From Ruminiclostridium sp. (GTDB taxonomy: Bacteria; Bacillota; Clostridia; Oscillospirales; Oscillospiraceae), in the NCBI GenBank assembly GCA_022792035.1, contig JAAWAE010000036.1, positions 18,378 to 82,377 of the forward strand: 64,000 nucleotides of DNA, read 5' to 3'. Position 1 is the first letter of the stretch; each line of letters starts with the position of its first letter. The notes under the pieces are model-generated. The model did no database searches. It worked only from the letters and a program-made list of their open reading frames with translations, and was not told the origin of the DNA. The position numbers and the translations under genes are program-made. Positions 30,802 through 41,437 of the stretch are shown piece after piece.

Positions 30802-32247
30802 TCATTCTATTCTATCCCGTACCGGACGGACCCTGCGCCGGGACAGCGTGTCCATGGCATCCAGCAATGCCGCAAGATCCATGGGTTTGGTCAAGTGCTC
30901 GTCGATCCCACAGGCCCGAGACCTGCGCCGGTCGCTCTCCATGGCGTTGGCCGAGAGCGCGATGATGGGGATGTCCGCCAGCACCGGGTCCGGCAGGCTC
31001 CGAATGGCCCGGGAAGCCTCCCAGCCATCCATCACCGGCATCTGGATATCCATGAGGACCAGGTCATAGGCTCCCAGAGGGGCAGAGAGGATCTTGTCCA
31101 GCGCCGCTTGGCCATGCTCCGCGGTCTCCACCAAAAACCCTTCCTGCTCCAGCAGCTCCGTCTCGATCTCCGCGTTGATCTCGTTATCCTCCACCAGGAG
31201 GATCTTCCGAAACGGCGTCCCTGCGTCGGGGAGGGTCTGGCTGGTGACCTCCTGGAGCCGGAGGCGGAGGGTGATGGTAAAGACCGTGCCCTCGTCTACC
31301 CGGCTGCGCACATCGATGCTGCCGTCCATCCTGTCTACGATACTCTTCACGATGGTCAACCCCAATCCAGCCCCGTGGATACCGCTGATGGTAGAGCTGC
31401 GCTCACGCTCAAAGGGTTCATAAATCTGGGATAAAAATGACTCATCGATCCCTATGCCGGTGTCCGCGATCTTGATGCGGTAAACCCCATAGTCATTGGG
31501 CAATGTGTCCGTCTGGGCCACACTGATGCAGACCTGCCCCCCAGAGCGGGTATAGGTCACGGCGTTGCTGGCCAAGCTGAACACCATCTGTTTCAATTTT
31601 TCCCGGTCAGCGTAAACACCGCTCTGCTTCACATCCGCGCAGTCCAGCACAAAATCCAGGGACTTCCCCCGGGCCTGGAGCTGCAGACCCGCATAAACTT
31701 CCCCTACCGTCTCACACAGATCACAGGGGGTCTCCACAAGACCATTATCCCCGGACAGGGCCGAGACCTCCAGCAGCCGGGAAATCATGTCCAGCAGCTG
31801 CCGGCCGGCCTTCTCCGTCCGCTCCAGGTAGTTCAGCACAGTCTCCCGCTCCTCCAGCTTTCCCTTGGCCAGGGTGAGGAAGCCGAAGATGGCGTTGAGG
31901 GGGGTACGCATATCGTGGGAGATATGGGACAGGAAGGCGTCCTTGGCCTGGACCGCCAGATTCGCCTGTTCCAGGGCCTCCGCCAGCAGACGCTTCTGCT
32001 CCAGTTCCCGGCGCAGTTCCTCGTCCATGCGGCGGTATCCCATGATCACTTGAGAAAGCTGTCCCTGTTCCGACGCGCTGACGATGCGCATTTGCAAGTA
32101 TTGGACCTCCTCTTCCTGGAGTACTCGGAAGTTGACATAGAGTCCTGTATCCGCCTGGAGCGTTTGCTTGAGATGGTCCGGGTCCGTGGATTCCCGAAAC
32201 AGCTCCCGGTCCTCTGGGTGGACCCAAGTCTGCAAATAACGCGCCAA
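30802..32247 (-). CDS. Hybrid histidine kinase, C-terminal piece (HisKA-HATPase-REC) of a frameshifted gene
   Basis: The 481-residue frame contains a PAS remnant (LQTWVHPEDRELFRES), HisKA with intact phospho-acceptor (SHISHDMRTPLNAIFGF, His 111), HATPase_c (N box LASNAVTYTRSGG, G1 DTGIGI, G2 GAGLGL) and a receiver with LVLMDIQMPVMDG. Upstream in the same frame the protein reads on as FHDKLEACSYSEIL before the nominal start. It therefore continues the preceding PAS ORF after a frameshift at the G6 tract 32294-32299. Alone it has no convincing ribosome binding site. Confidence 0.85.
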   Translation of the reverse strand: MARYLQTWVHPEDRELFRESTDPDHLKQTLQADTGLYVNFRVLQEEEVQYLQMRIVSASEQGQLSQVIMGYRRMDEELRRELEQKRLLAEALEQANLAVQAKDAFLSHISHDMRTPLNAIFGFLTLAKGKLEERETVLNYLERTEKAGRQLLDMISRLLEVSALSGDNGLVETPCDLCETVGEVYAGLQLQARGKSLDFVLDCADVKQSGVYADREKLKQMVFSLASNAVTYTRSGGQVCISVAQTDTLPNDYGVYRIKIADTGIGIDESFLSQIYEPFERERSSTISGIHGAGLGLTIVKSIVDRMDGSIDVRSRVDEGTVFTITLRLRLQEVTSQTLPDAGTPFRKILLVEDNEINAEIETELLEQEGFLVETAEHGQAALDKILSAPLGAYDLVLMDIQMPVMDGWEASRAIRSLPDPVLADIPIIALSANAMESDRRRSRACGIDEHLTKPMDLAALLDAMDTLSRRRVRPVRDRIE

Positions 32248-33044
32248 GATTTCAGAGTAGGAACAGGCTTCCAGCTTGTCGTGAAACAGTGGTCCCCCCG
32301 CTCACTGAGCAGATAGGGCAAGATCCGGTCCCGTTCCAGGTCCACATAGAAGATGGAGTCGTAGCTCCTCCCAAGACCGCGGATCACCTCCAGGCGGCGC
32401 AGATGCTCCCGGTCCATTCGATCCCGCTCCTGCTGGTACTTCTCCATCAGCGCCTGGAGCTGCTGCTCCCCTTTGCGCTTTTCATCCCGAAGGATCTCCC
32501 GCTCGGCAAGCTGCCGCTGGCGGCGTTCAGTACTCTCGCTCAAAAAGACATAGAAGAGCTCTCCCACCGCCTCGCTGCGGACGAAATGCCCGTAGTCCTC
32601 CAGCCAGCGCACGCTCCCATCCCGGCGGATGATCCGGTATTCCACATAGTCCAGGTCATGGGGACTGCTGACGATCTGGGCCCGGATGCTCTCTTCCACC
32701 GCCTCCACGTCCTCAGGGTGGACCATCCCATGAAACGAATTGCCCGTCAAGGTCCGAAACTGCGCCATGTCCTCACAGAGGAACATCCGCTGCACAGCAC
32801 GGTTGGCGTACACGATCTCTTCCTTTCCATAGGCATAGTAGATCAAAAAGCCGCCGGGCATCTCGTCCATGAACTGCATCACCTCGTAGGCGGACTGGAA
32901 AGCAGGGGGAAGGGACAGCCCCTCCAGGGCCTCCGCCATCCCCTGCTCCAGTACCCGGTCCGGGTCTAGCTGGTGGTCTTGGAGAAAGTGCAGAAAATCT
33001 ACGATATTTTGAATCAGCTCATCCCTTCGCCCTCGTTCTATCAT
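32046..33044 (-). CDS. PAS-domain sensor piece, N-terminal part of a frameshifted hybrid kinase
   Basis: The 332-residue frame starts MIERGRRDELIQ. It has a PAS/PAC region (residues about 58-170, with FLIYYAYGKEEIVYANRAVQRMF and VEYRIIRRDGSVRWLEDYGHF), a coiled coil and the start of a second PAS (YDSIFYVDLERDRILPYLLSERG). After residue about 250 it leaves the family (HCFTTSWKPVPTLKS), exactly at six G residues. One extra G would join it to the kinase/receiver frame. Real coding sequence is about 32295-33044; the rest is shifted frame. Operon: after the 1044-residue kinase, before fapA. Confidence 0.8.
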   Translation of the reverse strand: MIERGRRDELIQNIVDFLHFLQDHQLDPDRVLEQGMAEALEGLSLPPAFQSAYEVMQFMDEMPGGFLIYYAYGKEEIVYANRAVQRMFLCEDMAQFRTLTGNSFHGMVHPEDVEAVEESIRAQIVSSPHDLDYVEYRIIRRDGSVRWLEDYGHFVRSEAVGELFYVFLSESTERRQRQLAEREILRDEKRKGEQQLQALMEKYQQERDRMDREHLRRLEVIRGLGRSYDSIFYVDLERDRILPYLLSERGDHCFTTSWKPVPTLKSWRVICRLGSTQRTGSCFGNPRTRTISSKRSRRIQDSMSTSEYSRKRRSNTCKCASSARRNRDSFLK

Positions 33045-33096: not shown

Positions 33097-36000
33097 TCAG
33101 CTCAGGATCTCGTCCAGCGTGTCCAGGAGCTTTTCTATGTCAATGGGCTTTGCAATGTGTCCGTTCATCCCGCACTGCAGCGCCGCCCGTTTGTCCTCTT
33201 CAAACGCGTTGGCTGTCATGGCCAGGATGGGCAGCGACGCCACCGCCTTGTTCTCCATGGCGCGGATGGCACGGGTGGCCTCATAGCCATCCATCACCGG
33301 CATCTGTACATCCATGAGGACCAGATCGTAGTCACCGGGCTTGGCGTTTTTCAGCTTGTTCACCGCCACTTGTCCATTCTCCGCAATCTCCGTGGTGAAG
33401 CCTGCCTCGGTGAGGATGGCTACGGCGATTTCCTGGTTGAGCTCGTTGTCCTCAGTGAGGAGGATGTGCCCGTTGTGCAGACGGTCCGGACCCCTGCGGG
33501 GGCGCTCCGCGTCCGAATCCCCTTCCACCACCGAGTGCAGGCAGGCCCGCAGCTCCGAGCAGAAGAGGGGTTTGCTGCAGAAGGCCGTAACCCCGGCTTC
33601 CCGGGCCTCCTCCTCGATATCCGCCCAATCGTAGGCGGTGAGGACGATGATGGGCACGTCTTCCTCGGTCTCCTTGCGGATGCGTCGGGCCACCTCGACC
33701 CCGTTCATGTCCGGCATCAGCCAGTCGATGAGGTAGACGCTGTAGTTGTCGTTGCGCATGATCGCCTGACGGGTCCGCAGCACCGCTTCCCGTCCGGACA
33801 TGGTCCACTCAGCCCGCAGCCCCATCTGCTGGAGCATATAGGATACGCTGTCACAGGTGTTGAAGTCATCGTCCACCACCAAGGCCCGACAATTCTTCAG
33901 CTTAGGGATCACCTGGGACTCTTTGGCACGCGCCCCCAGACGGAAAGTGAAGGTGACGATGAATTCCGTCCCCACCCCCTGCTCACTGCGCACTTCGATG
34001 GTCCCGTTCATCATGTCTACGATATTCTTTGTGATGGCCATGCCAAGGCCAGTGCCCTGGATGCCGCTGATGGTAGAGTTGCGCTCACGCTCGAAGGGTT
34101 CGAAAATGTGTTCCACGAACTCTTGGCTCATACCGATGCCGGTATCCTTGATGTAAAATTCATAGTTGGCAAAGCCGTCAGGCGCACCAGTCTTCTCCGT
34201 GATGCGGATGCTGACGATCCCTCCGGGGCCGGTGTACTTGATACAGTTGCTCAGAAGGTTCAGCAGGACCTGATTCAGGCGCAGCTTGTCGCAGAAAATC
34301 TCCTCGTCCAAAACGTCCACAGTATCGATGAACAAGTCCAGCTGCTTGGCCCGGATGTCCCCCTGGATGATGCTGCGCAGACCGTGGAGGATGTCCGGCA
34401 GGCTGCACTGGTTCTCCTCCAGGTGCATCTTCCCGCTCTCAATGCGGCTCATGTCCAGGACATCGTTGATGAGGCTCACCAGATGGTTGCCGGAGGTCAG
34501 GATCTTCTTCAGGTATTCCTCCACCTGCTCCTTCTGGTCGATATGGGTGATAGCCAGGGTGGTGAAGCCTACAATCGCATTCATGGGGGTGCGGATGTCG
34601 AGGGACATATTGGACAGGAAGACGCTCTTGGCCTTGCTGGCCCGGTTGGCTTGGAAGAGGGCATCCTCTAAAAGGCTCTTTTTCTGCATCTCTTTCCGGG
34701 TCTCATCGTCCACATTGAGAAAACCTAGTACGACGCCGCACTCCTGCTCCCAGTCCCCCGTCCGGACGACCTTCATCTGGAAATAACGGATTTCATTGCC
34801 GCAGAAGGTGCGATAGTTGAAATAGTATTGTTTCTTGTCTGCCAGCTCCCGGCACAGGGTCTCCCGGCTGCAAAGCTGACGCATGGTTTCCTGATCATCT
34901 TTGTAGACACAAGTGTCGATGTATGCCTGCATACACGTCTCGAGCTGCAGGGGCTTTCCGAACAAATCCTCCAGCACACCGAACTCGCAGGAACTGATCC
35001 GCAGGGAGGCACCCTTCCCAGTGCTCAGATCGAAGACGCAGACCAAGTTGTAATCCTCGCTGAGAGCGTGGATCAGCTCCATCTGCTGGCGTTCCTTCTG
35101 CATCTCCCGCAGCTTTTGATCGGTGCAGTCCAGGAGCAGACGCTGGAAGAAGAGCTCTCCGTTCTCCTCCACCACCTTGATGTTGCCCATAACGTGGGTA
35201 ATCGCGCCGCTGTCCTTTTGATGGACGCGGTACTCCACACTGACAGAATCCCCCACCTCATTGAGCTTGTGGATGGCCTCCAACAGCATATCCTTGTCCT
35301 CGTCCACAACAGAAGCCGCCACCATATCAAACCCGTCGGCGTTCATCTCCTCCCGGGAACTGTAGCCCAGAAGCTTCAATGCCGCCCGGTTGACACTGAG
35401 GATGTGGGAACCGTCCATACTGTGGCAGACCATGCCGCAGTCCATAGAGGTGAAGATCATCTCCATGGTCTGATTCTGGCGGACGATCTCCTGCTTATAG
35501 GCCCGCTCCTGGGTTATGTCAATGGCTACGCCTACGGTGCCCATAACGCTGCCATCCACATTATAAAGGGGGGATTTATAGGTGGTCAGCAACCGTGTCC
35601 CCTCACCGGTCTGGACGATCTCTTCCGAGATCTTGGTCTGACGGCTCTCCATCACGATACGTTCGGATTCAATGCACACCGGGTCGTCATACTCCACATC
35701 CCAGATGTAGGCATGACCCTGACCCTCGACTTGCTCCTTCGTCTTCTTCACCGTGCTGCAAAAGCTGTCGTTTACCTTTTCATGAATCCCGTTCTTATTT
35801 TTGTACCAGACGAGATTGGGCACACTGTTGATGGTGGCTTCCAAATATTGGCTGGTCTGCCAAAAGTCCTTCTCCTGCTTCCACGCCTGCTGGAGGCGCT
35901 GGAAACGAAAGCGCAGCTCCGCCTGGGACAGCGGGGTATGCCACAAGTCCTGGAGTTTTGGCAGATAGGGATCCAGCCCCTGCCCTTGGGGCGCCAACAG

Positions 36001-36231
36001 AATCAGCTGGGCCTGGGCCCGCTTTCCTTTCAGCAGGGCTTCCAGCCGGCTGGCCCCTAAAGCGCGCCAGTCGGCCAAGATCACATCGGCCCGGGCCATG
36101 GGGCCAGGTTCCGGGACGCTGCTCTCTGTAAAGCTATGGTCAAAGCCTGCAAGGGGCGCAATCCCCCTGAGCTGAACGGTCAGTTCCGTTGGACATCCTA
36201 TAAAATAAAAGTGGATTTGGCAGTGATACAT
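33097..36231 (-). CDS. Multi-PAS hybrid histidine kinase lacking the catalytic histidine
   Basis: I start at 36231 (MYHCQIHFYF) behind GGAGGAAG, giving 1044 residues. Order: a receiver-like N-terminal domain (1-110), PAS domains (about 125-245 and 255-375, perhaps a third to 510), HisKA, HATPase_c (N box LNLLSNCIKYT, G1 DTGIGM, G2 GTGLGM) and two receivers (LIDWLMPDMNG and LVLMDVQMPVMDG). The H box reads FLSNMSLDIRTPMNAIVGF, where related proteins have SHDIRTP. Leu 544 (CTC) replaces the phospho-acceptor His. The ATP site and receiver Asp residues look intact. It cannot autophosphorylate in the usual way; it may be a pseudokinase or decayed. Confidence 0.88.
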   Translation of the reverse strand: MYHCQIHFYFIGCPTELTVQLRGIAPLAGFDHSFTESSVPEPGPMARADVILADWRALGASRLEALLKGKRAQAQLILLAPQGQGLDPYLPKLQDLWHTPLSQAELRFRFQRLQQAWKQEKDFWQTSQYLEATINSVPNLVWYKNKNGIHEKVNDSFCSTVKKTKEQVEGQGHAYIWDVEYDDPVCIESERIVMESRQTKISEEIVQTGEGTRLLTTYKSPLYNVDGSVMGTVGVAIDITQERAYKQEIVRQNQTMEMIFTSMDCGMVCHSMDGSHILSVNRAALKLLGYSSREEMNADGFDMVAASVVDEDKDMLLEAIHKLNEVGDSVSVEYRVHQKDSGAITHVMGNIKVVEENGELFFQRLLLDCTDQKLREMQKERQQMELIHALSEDYNLVCVFDLSTGKGASLRISSCEFGVLEDLFGKPLQLETCMQAYIDTCVYKDDQETMRQLCSRETLCRELADKKQYYFNYRTFCGNEIRYFQMKVVRTGDWEQECGVVLGFLNVDDETRKEMQKKSLLEDALFQANRASKAKSVFLSNMSLDIRTPMNAIVGFTTLAITHIDQKEQVEEYLKKILTSGNHLVSLINDVLDMSRIESGKMHLEENQCSLPDILHGLRSIIQGDIRAKQLDLFIDTVDVLDEEIFCDKLRLNQVLLNLLSNCIKYTGPGGIVSIRITEKTGAPDGFANYEFYIKDTGIGMSQEFVEHIFEPFERERNSTISGIQGTGLGMAITKNIVDMMNGTIEVRSEQGVGTEFIVTFTFRLGARAKESQVIPKLKNCRALVVDDDFNTCDSVSYMLQQMGLRAEWTMSGREAVLRTRQAIMRNDNYSVYLIDWLMPDMNGVEVARRIRKETEEDVPIIVLTAYDWADIEEEAREAGVTAFCSKPLFCSELRACLHSVVEGDSDAERPRRGPDRLHNGHILLTEDNELNQEIAVAILTEAGFTTEIAENGQVAVNKLKNAKPGDYDLVLMDVQMPVMDGYEATRAIRAMENKAVASLPILAMTANAFEEDKRAALQCGMNGHIAKPIDIEKLLDTLDEILS

Positions 36232-36330
36232 AGATTCTTCCTCCCGCTGCGAAAGCCCCAGGCCCGTCTCCCTGGCACAGCCTTGGCTCACCGGTCTTGG
36301 TCTGAGGGACCAGCAATCGGTCTCTTTCCT
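36232..36330 (-). other. Structured leader of the kinase operon
   Basis: About 100 bases separate the promoter from the kinase start. On the minus strand they can form several hairpins: GGTC-cctca-GACC, AGCC-aa-GGCT and CCAGG-gagacggg-CCTGG. I cannot match them to a known riboswitch class. It may be an unrecognised leader RNA or simply GC-rich spacer. Confidence 0.35.
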
Positions 36331-36333
36331 TCT

Positions 36334-36362
36334 ATTTTATCAATCGTAAAGCCACCTGTCAA
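36334..36362 (-). promoter_or_regulatory. Sigma-A promoter of the kinase-fapA operon
   Basis: TTGACA (36362-36357), a 17-base spacer and TAAAAT (36339-36334) on the minus strand form a near-consensus promoter, about 100 bases upstream of the kinase start. Confidence 0.8.
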
Positions 36363-36447: not shown

Positions 36448-37506
36448 TTATCCCAAGCGCCGCTGGAGCTGCTCCGGGTGGTCGGAGCTGGACAGCGCCG
36501 TCTCCTTGGAGATCCGCCCTGCCTTATACAGCGAGAAAATGGACTGATCCATGGAAATCATCCCCTCCGCGCCGCCGGCGGCAATGGCGTTGTCAATCTG
36601 GTGGCTCTTGCTGTCCCGGATCAGACTGCGGATGCCGTTGTTGACGTGCATCACCTCAAAGGCCGGGGCCAGCTTCCCGTCCACGGTCTGCAGCAGCTGC
36701 TGGGACACCATGGTGTGCAGAACCATGCTCAGCTGGATGCGGACCTGGGCCTGCTGGTCACTGGGGAAGGCGTCCACGATGCGGTCCACTGTGTTTACCG
36801 CCCCCTGGGTGTGGAGGGTGGCGATGAGGAGATGGCCCGTCTCCGCTGCGGTCATGGCAGTGCGGATGGTCTCCGGGTCCCGCATCTCCCCCAAGAGCAC
36901 CACGTCCGGGGCCTGGCGCAGACAGGCGCGAAGGGCGGAGTTGTAGTCCTCAGTGTCAATGGAGATCTCCCGCTGGCTGACGATGCTCTTATAATTGCGG
37001 TGGAGATATTCGATGGGGTTCTCCATGGTGATGATGTGGCACTCCCGGTCCCGGTTGATCTGGTCGATGATGCAGGCCTGGGTGGTGGACTTGCCGCTGC
37101 CGGCAGTGCCCGTGACCAAAATCATGCCGTGGCGGACCTGGGAGAGCTTGATGACTTCTTCCGGAATCCCCATCTCCTGCCAGTCCGGGATGCCGAAGGC
37201 CACCACCCGGATCACCGCCGCCATGGAACCTCTCTGCCGGTATGTGTTGGCCCGGAAGCGGGCCAAGCCCGGCAGGGCAAAGGAGAAGTCATCGTCTCCC
37301 CGACCCATGAACAGGTCCATAGAGCGGCCTGCTCGAGCGTAGAGATCCGTAATCAGCCGTTCCGTATCCGAAGGCATCATCCGCTCCTCGCCGATGGGGC
37401 AGAGCCGTTGATCCAGCTTCTGGCACACCGGACTGCCGGCGATGATGAACAAATCGGAGGCGTTGTCCTCCACAGAGCGGGTCAAATAGTCCAGCAATTC
37501 TGCCAT
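36448..37506 (-). CDS. pilT: Type IV pilus retraction-type ATPase PilT
   Basis: The 352-residue cytoplasmic ATPase has the PilT layout: an N-terminal domain (NASDLFIIAGSPV), Walker A GTAGSGKSTT (the usual first residues are GPTG), an Asp box, Walker B VVLLGEMRDPETI, a His box (IATLHTQGAVNTVDRIV) and an AIRNLIRE-like motif near the end (GIRSLIRDSKSHQI). PilT powers pilus retraction in classical systems. No PilB extension ATPase is in this window, so this may be the locus's only motor. It is the last gene of the operon, 10 bases after a small membrane protein gene. Confidence 0.92.
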   Translation of the reverse strand: MAELLDYLTRSVEDNASDLFIIAGSPVCQKLDQRLCPIGEERMMPSDTERLITDLYARAGRSMDLFMGRGDDDFSFALPGLARFRANTYRQRGSMAAVIRVVAFGIPDWQEMGIPEEVIKLSQVRHGMILVTGTAGSGKSTTQACIIDQINRDRECHIITMENPIEYLHRNYKSIVSQREISIDTEDYNSALRACLRQAPDVVLLGEMRDPETIRTAMTAAETGHLLIATLHTQGAVNTVDRIVDAFPSDQQAQVRIQLSMVLHTMVSQQLLQTVDGKLAPAFEVMHVNNGIRSLIRDSKSHQIDNAIAAGGAEGMISMDQSIFSLYKAGRISKETALSSSDHPEQLQRRLG

Positions 37507-37516
37507 GTCGTTCCTC

Positions 37517-37951
37517 CTATTCCCCGTCCCAAACCGTCAGGCTGTCGTCGATGGACCAGTCGCCGGTGGGGACGGCCTGCCAGCGCCGGACCATATACTC
37601 CTCGCCCCGAAACTCCACCGTGACCCTGAGTGTCTGGGTCTCGGAGATGGGACAGTCGTAGGAATAACTCACATCCCCGGCGTCGTTGATCTTCTTACTT
37701 TTTATTTTGATGTCCTTGGACACCGTCTCACCGCTGCGCAGCTGAGCCAGGACCTCCTGGGCCTTGCTGTCAGCGTTGTAATATTCTTCTACAGATCGGG
37801 CCGAAATTTGGCTGAGCCGTCCGTCGGCCCGGACGGTGGAGAGGCTCAGCAGCGCGAACACCGTCAGGCACAGCACGGCGAACACCACCAGCAGAGAGGC
37901 CCCGCCGATGGCCGGAGGCGAGATGCGCCCGTCCTCTTTCTTAGCTGCCAT
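37517..37951 (-). CDS. Small membrane-anchored pilus-locus protein
   Basis: This 144-residue protein has one N-terminal helix (ASLLVVFAVLCLTVFALLSL) followed by an extracytoplasmic domain with a YNADSKAQEVLAQLRSG segment. It has a single-helix pseudopilin-like layout but no clear prepilin peptidase site (no GFTLIE-type motif). It overlaps the previous gene by 11 bases and precedes pilT by 10, so it belongs to the pilus-like operon. I infer a minor pilin or assembly role from position only. Confidence 0.7.
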   Translation of the reverse strand: MAAKKEDGRISPPAIGGASLLVVFAVLCLTVFALLSLSTVRADGRLSQISARSVEEYYNADSKAQEVLAQLRSGETVSKDIKIKSKKINDAGDVSYSYDCPISETQTLRVTVEFRGEEYMVRRWQAVPTGDWSIDDSLTVWDGE

Positions 37952-38372
37952 GGATGCTCACCTCCTGCCATGCCGCCTCCAGGCGGAACAGTTCCGTTTC
38001 CTCCTGTTCGTCCCGCAGCCACACGGCGGCCCGGCCCAGACCGGGCTGGTCCTCCTCCAGGCGGGTGACGCCCAGGGTATAGCGCATGGTATCCTCTGCC
38101 GGAGTCCAATCCTTGGCATAGTCCACCATCAGGGAATCCGAGTCATATGTATCAGCGCCCAGCAGTTTGGCAGCTTGGGCGAAGTCACCCTTGGAAGCCC
38201 GGATGGCCTCCGCTGCGTTCTGGCACAGGGACACGGCTTGGTCCCGGTCCACAATCTGCTGGGAGAGCTGGTCGGACTTCACAAAAGCCTGCATACACAG
38301 CGCCGCCGCCAAGGCGAACACCAGCAGCATGACCATCTGCTCCATGAGCACCAAAGGCGCTTTGCTCCTCAT
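37941..38372 (-). CDS. Pseudopilin-like membrane protein
   Basis: The 143-residue protein begins MRSKAPLVLMEQMVMLLVFALAAALCMQAF. That is a short basic start, a Glu just before a long hydrophobic helix and then a soluble domain with two Cys. It is reminiscent of pilins but without the standard cleavage motif. The start overlaps the stop of the DUF4860 gene (ATGA). I infer a minor pilin-like component of the same system. Confidence 0.7.
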   Translation of the reverse strand: MRSKAPLVLMEQMVMLLVFALAAALCMQAFVKSDQLSQQIVDRDQAVSLCQNAAEAIRASKGDFAQAAKLLGADTYDSDSLMVDYAKDWTPAEDTMRYTLGVTRLEEDQPGLGRAAVWLRDEQEETELFRLEAAWQEVSIHGS

Positions 38373-38860
38373 GCCGCCGCCCCCCTCTCACTGCGCAGGG
38401 ACAGCAGCAGCTCCGCTTCCCTGCCCTCCTGGGTGGTCAGGGACAGCTTCAATACCCCTCGGGACAGCTCCGCCGACAGAGACTGGGCCGGCATGATCTC
38501 CTCTCCGTCCGCCGGGGAGACCTCATTGCTGGCGGCACAGAAGAGCTCCTTCAGATGACCCTCGTCCACATAGACATAGGTCACATAGTCCGCTCCGTCA
38601 ATCTCTTCCCGCAGGAGCAGGGCGTCCCTGCCGTCAAAGTCCTCCACGCTGACCCCGTTGATCCGGTCAGCCTGACGCACTCTGGCCGCCAGATATTGGG
38701 CGCAGACCCGGTAATCATAAGCCGCCTGATCCCGGTCCGTCAAGGCCCGGTACGTATTGGCCCCCGTCAGCAGCACTGCCATCAGACAGACGGCGAACAC
38801 GCCAAAAAGCAGCAGGGCCAGCAGACCCTCTAATTGATGTTTTTGCCCACTTCTTGTCAT
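38369..38860 (-). CDS. DUF4860-like pilus-locus protein
   Basis: The 163-residue protein (MTRSGQKHQLEGLLALLLFGVFAVCLMAVLL) has one N-terminal helix preceded by an EGLL segment and a soluble domain with YRVCAQYLAARVRQAD and YVDEGHLKELFCAA. It resembles DUF4860, a clostridial family found next to pilC-like genes; the function is unknown. It is preceded by a GC-rich hairpin in the 95-base gap after the 107-residue protein gene, which might attenuate transcription. Confidence 0.7.
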   Translation of the reverse strand: MTRSGQKHQLEGLLALLLFGVFAVCLMAVLLTGANTYRALTDRDQAAYDYRVCAQYLAARVRQADRINGVSVEDFDGRDALLLREEIDGADYVTYVYVDEGHLKELFCAASNEVSPADGEEIMPAQSLSAELSRGVLKLSLTTQEGREAELLLSLRSERGAAA

Positions 38861-38955
38861 TTTTCATAGCCTCAAGCTCTTAAAAATGTCACAGCTTCAA
38901 GAAAAGGCAGGGGACAGCGCGACCTCGCGCGGCCCCCCTCCTTATCCGTTACGGG

Positions 38956-39279
38956 TCAGGACCCGGTCCCCTGCACCGGCACCACCGTGATATCCGGCAT
39001 CAGGTTTTGGGCAATGGCCACGTAATGCACCGTGCAATGCGTCTCGTCGATCTGCAGGCCGAAGCGCTCCTGAAGGGCCTCCAGGCTGGGGGGATAGACC
39101 CCCTCCGCCGCGTAGCAGGCTACGCTGCTGCGGCGCACCGCTTCTTCTACCTGCTTGAGCTGCTCCTGGGCCTGTCCGCTGCCCAGCTCGTCCAGGGCGG
39201 TGGAAAAAAACAATAAAACCACCGCCACCGCCAGCACCGGCAGGGCCATTCGCAGCAGGTTCTTCCATCTTTTTTTCAT
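38956..39279 (-). CDS. Small single-helix protein of the pilus-like operon
   Basis: The 107-residue protein has a basic start (MKKRWKNLLRM), one helix (ALPVLAVAVVLLFFSTAL) and a short soluble part with EEAVRRSSVACYAAEGVYPPSLEALQERFGL. That is the kind of segment seen after the N-terminal helix of type II secretion and pilus pseudopilins. It begins 4 bases after pilC. The absence of a prepilin cleavage motif leaves the exact role open. Confidence 0.72.
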   Translation of the reverse strand: MKKRWKNLLRMALPVLAVAVVLLFFSTALDELGSGQAQEQLKQVEEAVRRSSVACYAAEGVYPPSLEALQERFGLQIDETHCTVHYVAIAQNLMPDITVVPVQGTGS

Positions 39280-39283
39280 GGTC

Positions 39284-40318
39284 TCACCCGATGGTACTCA
39301 TGATGTGCATCAGCGGCAGCATCACAGACAGCAGGATCAGGCCCACCAGCACCGAGCAGATCAGCACCAGTGCCGGCTCCACCCGGCTCACCATCTCCTC
39401 CACAGCGGCTTCGCTGTCTTCGGAGAGGTCCCGGGCAATCTTCTCCATGGCCATATCGGCCGAACCGCTGCGCTGACCCAGCTCCAACAGCCGGCAGGCG
39501 CTGCTGGGGAGCAGGTCGCTGCTGCGCACCGCCTCGGACAGGGAACTCCCCTCCTCCAGCTTATCGCAGCAGGACTGGCAGCGGGCCTGGGCCAGAGGCA
39601 CATCCGCCAGCAAGGTGGCTGAGAGCTCCAGCGCCTTCTCCAGCGGCAGGCCGCTGGTCATGCCCATGGACAGCGCCTGAATCAGGCGCGCGTTATTCAT
39701 ACGCCGGGAAACGCCCCGGTCTCCCCGGCTCCTGCGCCAGGAAGAGAGAATCTTGCCGCGAAAGCGGTCGCTCTGGGCAAAGGCGGCGCATAGCACCACC
39801 ACCACTGCCAGCAACACCCACAGCAAGGGCATCACAGATCCCAACCCGCGGCCCAAGGCCAGCAGGCCCCCGGCTACGCCGGTAAGCCTGCTGCCCAGGG
39901 AGATATATACATCATTGAATATGGGCAGGACCCGGATCAGGAGCACCCCGATGACCACCAGCATCAGCACCAGCATCACCGCCGGATACAGCAGCGCGCT
40001 GCGCACCTGACGCTCCAGGCGCATCCTGCGCTCGTAGTACTGGGACAGCCCGGCCAGGGCCTCCTCGGTGCGGCCGGTCTCCTCCCCCACCTGGATCAGT
40101 CCGCAAACGTAGGCAGGGAAGCGTCCGCTCTGCCGCAGGCACTCCGAGAGCGGTGCGCCCAGGTCAGCCTGTTCTGCCATGCCCTCCAGCAGGTCCTGGT
40201 AGGCGCCCTCCTGGCCCAGAAGGGCCAGGGCGTCGCCTACGCTGACACCAGCGTGGAGGAGCAGATACAGTTCCATGGTCAAACCGGAGAGTTCCCGGTT
40301 CGTGATCGTCTTTGCCAT
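39284..40318 (-). CDS. pilC: Type IV pilus/type II secretion inner-membrane platform protein (PilC/GspF)
   Basis: The 344-residue protein has two GspF domains. The first contains DLGAPLSECLRQSGRFPAYVCGLIQVGEETGRTEEAL and the second contains SLSEAVRSSDLLPSSACRLLELGQRSGSADMAM. Three membrane helices follow the family pattern, ending VGLILLSVMLPLMHIM. PilC is the inner-membrane base that couples the motor ATPase to pilin assembly. It lies 11 bases after a transglutaminase-like lipoprotein gene and ahead of the pilin-like genes. Confidence 0.9.
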   Translation of the reverse strand: MAKTITNRELSGLTMELYLLLHAGVSVGDALALLGQEGAYQDLLEGMAEQADLGAPLSECLRQSGRFPAYVCGLIQVGEETGRTEEALAGLSQYYERRMRLERQVRSALLYPAVMLVLMLVVIGVLLIRVLPIFNDVYISLGSRLTGVAGGLLALGRGLGSVMPLLWVLLAVVVVLCAAFAQSDRFRGKILSSWRRSRGDRGVSRRMNNARLIQALSMGMTSGLPLEKALELSATLLADVPLAQARCQSCCDKLEEGSSLSEAVRSSDLLPSSACRLLELGQRSGSADMAMEKIARDLSEDSEAAVEEMVSRVEPALVLICSVLVGLILLSVMLPLMHIMSTIG

Positions 40319-40329
40319 CGTGCAGGATC

Positions 40330-41334
40330 TTAGTAGAGGTACTTGGTGGTGTAGTTGCTGCCGTCACCCACGTACTGCTGAATCGCCGCACTGTTTTTGC
40401 TGGAAGAGATGAAGGTGGGGTCCATCCGCTGCCAGGAGGTGCCGTCAAAGAAGATGGCGCCGTCCACCCAGCCGCTCTCCTCGGTATAGACGCTGACCCA
40501 GGCATGGTATGCCTGACCGGCGTAGCCCACCACCAGCTTGCAGGGGATATCCTGGCTGCGCAGCATCCCGGTCATCAGGGCGGCATAGTCGAAGCAGATG
40601 CCCTTGCCCTCAGCCAGGGTGGTATCCAGGACAGGCAGATAGCCGGACTTCACCGTAGCGGCCTTCTGGCTGTCATAGGTGATGTGGGAGACCACAAAGT
40701 CATAGACCTTCTGCACCTTTTTCAAGGTGTCCGTCTCCCCGCTGGTGAGCTCCGCGGCCTTGGCCACGGTGTTCTTGGCCACACCATAGTCTACATACTG
40801 GTTGGGATAGAGGAAGGGGCCGAACTCGTTGGCCAGAGTCACGTCAAAGGACTCGGACAGAACGGTGGCATAGCGGTCGCTCTCGATGTTCTCGAAAACC
40901 GTCACCTGATACTTCCCGTTGCCGTCGGACAGGGGGAAGGTGGTCCAGGTGTCCGCCTTCAGGTCATAGGTGTAAGTGGTCTTTGCCGTCACCTGGACCT
41001 TCAGCCGCTTTCCGGAGGCAGAGGAGCTGGTGATCATGATATAACCATCCTTGGCGTTGGAATAATCGATGGTAGCCTGATCGCTCTTCTTAGCCTGGGT
41101 CCCGGGGGCCGTGGGCTTGAGGTTGCCAGATTGTACGGGCTGAGGTGCGTCAGCCAGTGCTACCGCCTCGTCGCTGATTTTAGCCACTTCCACCACAGGC
41201 GAGACGTCGATATACATCGACTCAGAGTCGTTCTCCTGGGCCGGCTGGGACGCGCTTTCGTCCTGTGTGCCGCAGCCTGCCAGCAGCATCAGCAACATAG
41301 AGGCCAGGAGAACCAATGAAAGTTTTTTCTTCAT
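40330..41334 (-). CDS. Transglutaminase-like lipoprotein
   Basis: I start at MKKKLSLVLL (41334), where GGAGG is 8 bases upstream; 334 residues. The signal peptide ends LLMLLAGC (lipid Cys about 21). A Ser/Gly linker and a beta-domain precede a transglutaminase-like core with Cys 247 (GKGICFDYAALM), His 277 (AYHAWVSVY) and Asp 305 (RMDPTF), a complete catalytic triad. Such surface proteins act as cysteine proteases or cross-linkers. It opens the pilus-like operon, so processing or cross-linking of surface fibres is a reasonable but untested idea. Confidence 0.88.
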   Translation of the reverse strand: MKKKLSLVLLASMLLMLLAGCGTQDESASQPAQENDSESMYIDVSPVVEVAKISDEAVALADAPQPVQSGNLKPTAPGTQAKKSDQATIDYSNAKDGYIMITSSSASGKRLKVQVTAKTTYTYDLKADTWTTFPLSDGNGKYQVTVFENIESDRYATVLSESFDVTLANEFGPFLYPNQYVDYGVAKNTVAKAAELTSGETDTLKKVQKVYDFVVSHITYDSQKAATVKSGYLPVLDTTLAEGKGICFDYAALMTGMLRSQDIPCKLVVGYAGQAYHAWVSVYTEESGWVDGAIFFDGTSWQRMDPTFISSSKNSAAIQQYVGDGSNYTTKYLY

Positions 41335-41360
41335 ATACATTTCCTCCCTTAGACGATGTT

Positions 41361-41403
41361 TGGAAGCTATACCCGCTGTGCACGCAAACAGGTACAGCTT
41401 CCA
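41361..41403 (-). other. Strong leader hairpin before the pilus-like operon
   Basis: On the minus strand TGGAAGCTGTACC pairs with GGGTATAGCTTCCA (one wobble) around a 17-base loop. It lies in the untranslated leader between promoter and first gene and has no T-run, so it is not a terminator. It may be a protein- or ligand-binding element, or stabilise the mRNA. Confidence 0.5.
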
Positions 41404-41408
41404 TGGGC

Positions 41409-41437
41409 ATTTTACCATAGAGGATATGACAAAGCAA
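41409..41437 (-). promoter_or_regulatory. Sigma-A promoter of the pilus-like operon
   Basis: TTGCTT (41437-41432), a 17-base spacer and TAAAAT (41414-41409) on the minus strand would give a leader of about 70 bases containing the 41361-41403 hairpin. Confidence 0.6.

Follow-up and report, generated by a model that had tools for sequence, protein, structure and literature searches.

The window, by which we mean the whole stretch of 64,000 nucleotides of Ruminiclostridium sp. DNA analysed here, encodes on its minus strand a hybrid histidine kinase that has a leucine at the phospho-acceptor position: nucleotides 34600-34602 are GAG on the plus strand, that is, CTC in the gene. Probably, though by no means surely, one base changed here very recently and cost a hybrid kinase of gut Clostridia, otherwise under constraint, its phospho-acceptor. 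By its sequence the protein is a descendant of the HisKA family without its autokinase residue. None of the other 141 related domains that we compared has Leu, and for that reason it looks like the outcome of one recent inactivating mutation, or of a base-calling error, and not like a new type of signalling protein.

The original prediction for this DNA was that a CTC leucine codon stands where a histidine codon is expected, and re-reading the codon within SNMSLDIRTPMNAI bears it out. That segment belongs to an open frame of 1064 codons (36291-33097). The features discussed below are the following.

33097 to 36231, minus strand: hybrid histidine kinase of about 1044 aa, with an N-terminal region, PAS domains, HisKA, HATPase_c, REC1 and REC2 (open reading frame, Pfam, homologue alignment).
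34600 to 34602, minus strand: the CTC codon for Leu, against CAY for His in the family; residue 564 in GTG numbering (codon reading and homologue alignment).
34570 to 34614, minus strand: H box SNMSLDIRTPMNAIV, with D565 and T568, the kinase acid and the phosphatase residue, kept (homologue comparison).
36334 to 36362, minus strand: promoter-like site upstream of the kinase, TTGACA-17-TAAAAT with TG before the -10, 11 of 12 matches, a consensus match only.
30802 to 33044, minus strand: a second, adjacent hybrid histidine kinase with PAS, HisKA (His present), HATPase_c and REC, divided by a frameshift (open reading frames, Pfam).
32294 to 32299, minus strand: six G on the coding strand (six C on the plus strand), where the frame of the neighbour changes (frame comparison).

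The reading frame is uninterrupted from the GTG at 36291 down to 33097. Since most homologue alignments begin near residue 11-25 (GTG numbering), the ATG at 36231, preceded by GGGAGGA, is likely to be the better start, giving a protein of about 1044 aa. We keep the GTG numbering for L564 and H564L; the same Leu is residue 544 when counted from the ATG. Both the promoter-like site and the ribosome-binding site are intact. Pfam profiles identify HisKA (E = 6e-16), PAS domains, HATPase_c and two REC domains, and HisKA, HATPase_c and REC follow one another in the order of a HisKA hybrid histidine kinase of the HPK1 type; the phospho-acceptor His of that type is the element that the protein lacks. 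A Kyte-Doolittle search for a membrane helix over the whole kinase found none (best 19-residue mean 0.98), so the protein is probably cytoplasmic throughout.

The rest of the catalytic machinery is in place. In comparison with 35 homologues, the kinase keeps the family residues D565, T568, P569, N678, N682, D716, G718, G720, G746, G748 and G750. The ATP-binding domain has its N, G1, F and G2 boxes, and each receiver retains its acidic pair, phospho-Asp, Thr and Lys. The N, G1 and G2 boxes and the receiver aspartates had looked intact in the sequence, and we observe that this holds against the homologues, with the F box intact as well. We also considered whether the phospho-acceptor could have been relocated. 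The nearest further His in the DHp helix sits in ITHID, and the family consensus also reads ITHID, so that this His is an ordinary residue and no moved acceptor.

In order to see how the family reads at this position, we took 80 loci that encode related proteins in public genomes, added other hits within the genus, and noted which residue aligns with L564. Among 142 aligned HisKA domains, 141 have His, and the only Leu is that of the kinase itself; the acceptor codons are CAC (81), CAT (60) and CTC (1). All 35 of the nearest homologues have His. These come from Lawsonibacter, Flintibacter and many other Oscillospiraceae and Lachnospiraceae, and most are 61-70% identical, some down to about 52%. 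They are full-length PAS-HisKA-HATPase_c-REC-REC kinases of gut bacteria with the same domain order and an H box that is alike except for one residue, which is His in all of them, for instance in a Lawsonibacter sp. MAG contig (L039) and in Flintibacter muris (L047), and Leu in the present copy. In the source genome itself, where the HisKA domains were read from short stretches, His is found in all 27 of the other HisKA domains detected. The 1.9 Mb draft genome has 28 HisKA domains in total.

With the degenerate H-box pattern NMS-X-DIRTPMN we surveyed 301 genomes of the bacterial family, and also 394 genomes of the order. In both sets the acceptor codon could be any with C, G or T as its middle base; of the codons with a middle A (which also stand for Tyr, Asn, Asp, Lys, Glu and Gln), the family survey took in CAY alone. 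Within the 301 family genomes, the CAY version occurs at 145 places among the matches listed, in 62 genomes, and a version with C, G or T in the middle occurs at one place, which is the kinase described here. The 394 genomes of the order hold no further H box of the latter kind that matches the degenerate pattern. No clade of Leu H boxes thus came to light in these genomes with this pattern. To judge by the nearest homologues and the 142 aligned domains, the acceptor position is no loose site at which the family varies.

The Leu form is known from one assembled genome of the species. A search of 15 other genomes of the genus returned no full-length close homologue, the best matches being 53-61% identical over the C-terminal half or two thirds. 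With relatives of 61-70% identity found in other genera, this patchy distribution suggests gene transfer or repeated loss.

Alignment of the 35 homologues gives 185 invariant columns, and the Leu-bearing kinase differs at one of them only, H564L. Other family members depart from columns invariant in the rest between 0 and 12 times, usually 0 to 3. In the CA (ATP-binding) domain, just one of 85 well-conserved columns is off consensus, the third lowest count of 33 sequences, and the divergence of the remaining domains is inside the family range. There is no stop or frameshift in the gene, and no domain with an excess of changes. A decaying pseudogene, which the original prediction had offered as one option, would carry several disabling or unconstrained changes; we find a single private one. 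This sole private change in an unrelaxed remainder indicates that H564L is younger than any relaxation of constraint that the alignment can detect, or that it is not real.

In HisKA chemistry, ATP bound by the CA domain phosphorylates the His of the DHp domain, which then loads the receiver. From this established chemistry, the protein as written would be unable to autophosphorylate on the acceptor residue. We propose that CTC arose through one A-to-T change from the His codon, which relatives have as CAC or CAT. The Leu protein would still be made, fold, dimerise and bind ATP; its DHp helix would take no phosphate, and the two receivers of the kinase would not be loaded by it. As the D-x-x-T motif keeps its Asp and Thr, a reduced phosphatase activity may remain, in what would be a locked-off form. 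Mutational work on other kinases bears on this last point: in CrdS, H371A reduces phosphatase activity, and in EnvZ the phospho-acceptor His enhances phosphatase activity and is not required for it (PMC3510030). In CrdS, N375, four residues past the His, is needed for phosphatase activity, and the acidic neighbour of the His for kinase activity (PMC3510030); T568 occupies the place of N375 in the present kinase. We thus predict a product without kinase activity that would still form dimers and bind ATP, and that is perhaps a weak phosphatase.

The next gene downstream is a second hybrid histidine kinase, which had been described as broken, and indeed its PAS half and its HisKA-HATPase_c-REC half lie in different frames, the frame changing at the six-base run 32294-32299. 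Alignments of homologues with the C-terminal kinase half begin at the first residues of that half, which has kept its acceptor His. This frameshifted gene is unlikely to be the phosphate donor for the receivers of the Leu-bearing kinase, since its N-terminus and its kinase half are not in the same frame. Real slippage, an error of sequencing or a phase-variable switch may lie behind the frameshift, and its position beside the Leu allele mildly favours a recent local inactivation. We rejected the neighbour as a partner conserved by synteny. In the homologue loci nothing matches its N-terminal half, and the genus offers a single substantial match (in G014, 42% over 128 residues), so the two kinases form no conserved pair. 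In two other genomes (loci L050 and L085), a relative of the Leu-bearing kinase has pilT and type IV pilus-like genes close by, as at 36448-41418 of the window, with a different gene order; a functional link between kinase and pili is possible.

Elsewhere in the genome, four paralogous hybrid kinases (on contigs C94, C104, C62 and C76) are 41-48% identical to the Leu-bearing kinase over the kinase-receiver part. There are four HPt matches, one of them a short frame of 126 codons on C94, near the 48%-identical paralogue. The receivers of the Leu-bearing kinase could in principle supply a phosphorelay at that place.

How should the Leu codon then be interpreted? The uniqueness of Leu, H564L as the sole private change, and a CA domain that has diverged so little together speak against a pseudokinase lineage and against general decay, and most likely we are looking at a loss of function at the level of the strain; the second kinase of the locus is broken too. 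Against a recent real loss stands the fact that it is seen in one genome, and that a base-calling or consensus error would look identical. Such an error in a draft genome of metagenome type, with an organism that truly has His and a normal kinase, is unlikely in our estimate, though it has to be taken seriously. It would account for a single-base difference seen once with no further sign of decay, the assembly is a draft (104 contigs, 84.7% complete), and the neighbour breaks in a mononucleotide run, a common place for sequence errors. On the other hand, substitution errors are rare in well-covered consensus sequence, and the conserved genes of the window that were examined are intact (sigma factor, DnaG, formyltransferase, deformylase, RlmN-like, RsmB-like and others). 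A two-kinase locus already pseudogenising under relaxed selection is very improbable: the adjacent frameshift would fit, but without a stop, a frameshift, a domain with excess changes or another private change at invariant columns in the Leu-bearing gene, only the very first step of such a decay would agree with what we observe.

It is also improbable that the loss of His was selected, making a young functional pseudokinase that dimerises with or titrates partners, or acts as a phosphatase, in the manner of DivL, RetS or the evolved ChrS. The fully kept ATP-binding domain and receivers would suit such a role, as would the four paralogues as possible partners, and kinase-dead forms can be beneficial (PMC9491836); but a mutation that had simply happened recently would leave the domains just as intact, and with Leu in no relative examined there has been no evolutionary time in which to see selection on the new form. 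Improbable, too, is the particular version in which Leu is fixed in the species and the newborn protein, with no other drift, serves as a kinase-dead regulator of a paralogous hybrid kinase, as an ATP-bound dimer partner or a phosphatase. DivL of Caulobacter and other alphaproteobacteria is likewise a HisKA-type DHp protein without the phospho-acceptor His, but its Tyr replacement is conserved across homologues and its ATP binding is weak (PMC4211667), whereas here the change is private, shared by 0 of the 35 nearest homologues, and the CA domain is unaltered. The ChrS pseudokinase form arose spontaneously in laboratory evolution of C. glutamicum and, as we propose for the present kinase, results from a recent single mutation; it is catalytically dead and can still dimerise with a paralogue, acting through heterodimers. 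Its lesion is a CA-domain frameshift with a measured benefit (PMC9491836), while ours is a replaced His. RetS of Pseudomonas aeruginosa, also a hybrid kinase, can act on another kinase through a heterodimer, with phosphorelay residues that are dispensable or not fully required (PMC4866733); in our case the paralogues are candidate partners only. Thus, of the pseudokinase originally proposed, the inability to autophosphorylate on Leu stands; a conserved branch of DivL type finds no support, every relative examined having His. For a recent loss, the pseudokinase or phosphate-sink reading is not needed.

More generally, when a catalytic residue is missing in one draft genome, the orthologues should be compared before a pseudokinase is named. 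The Leu allele leaves the picture of histidine kinase function unaltered. If real, the change would give a hybrid kinase that is widespread in the gut a clean, naturally occurring kinase-dead allele, useful as a ready-made loss-of-function variant.
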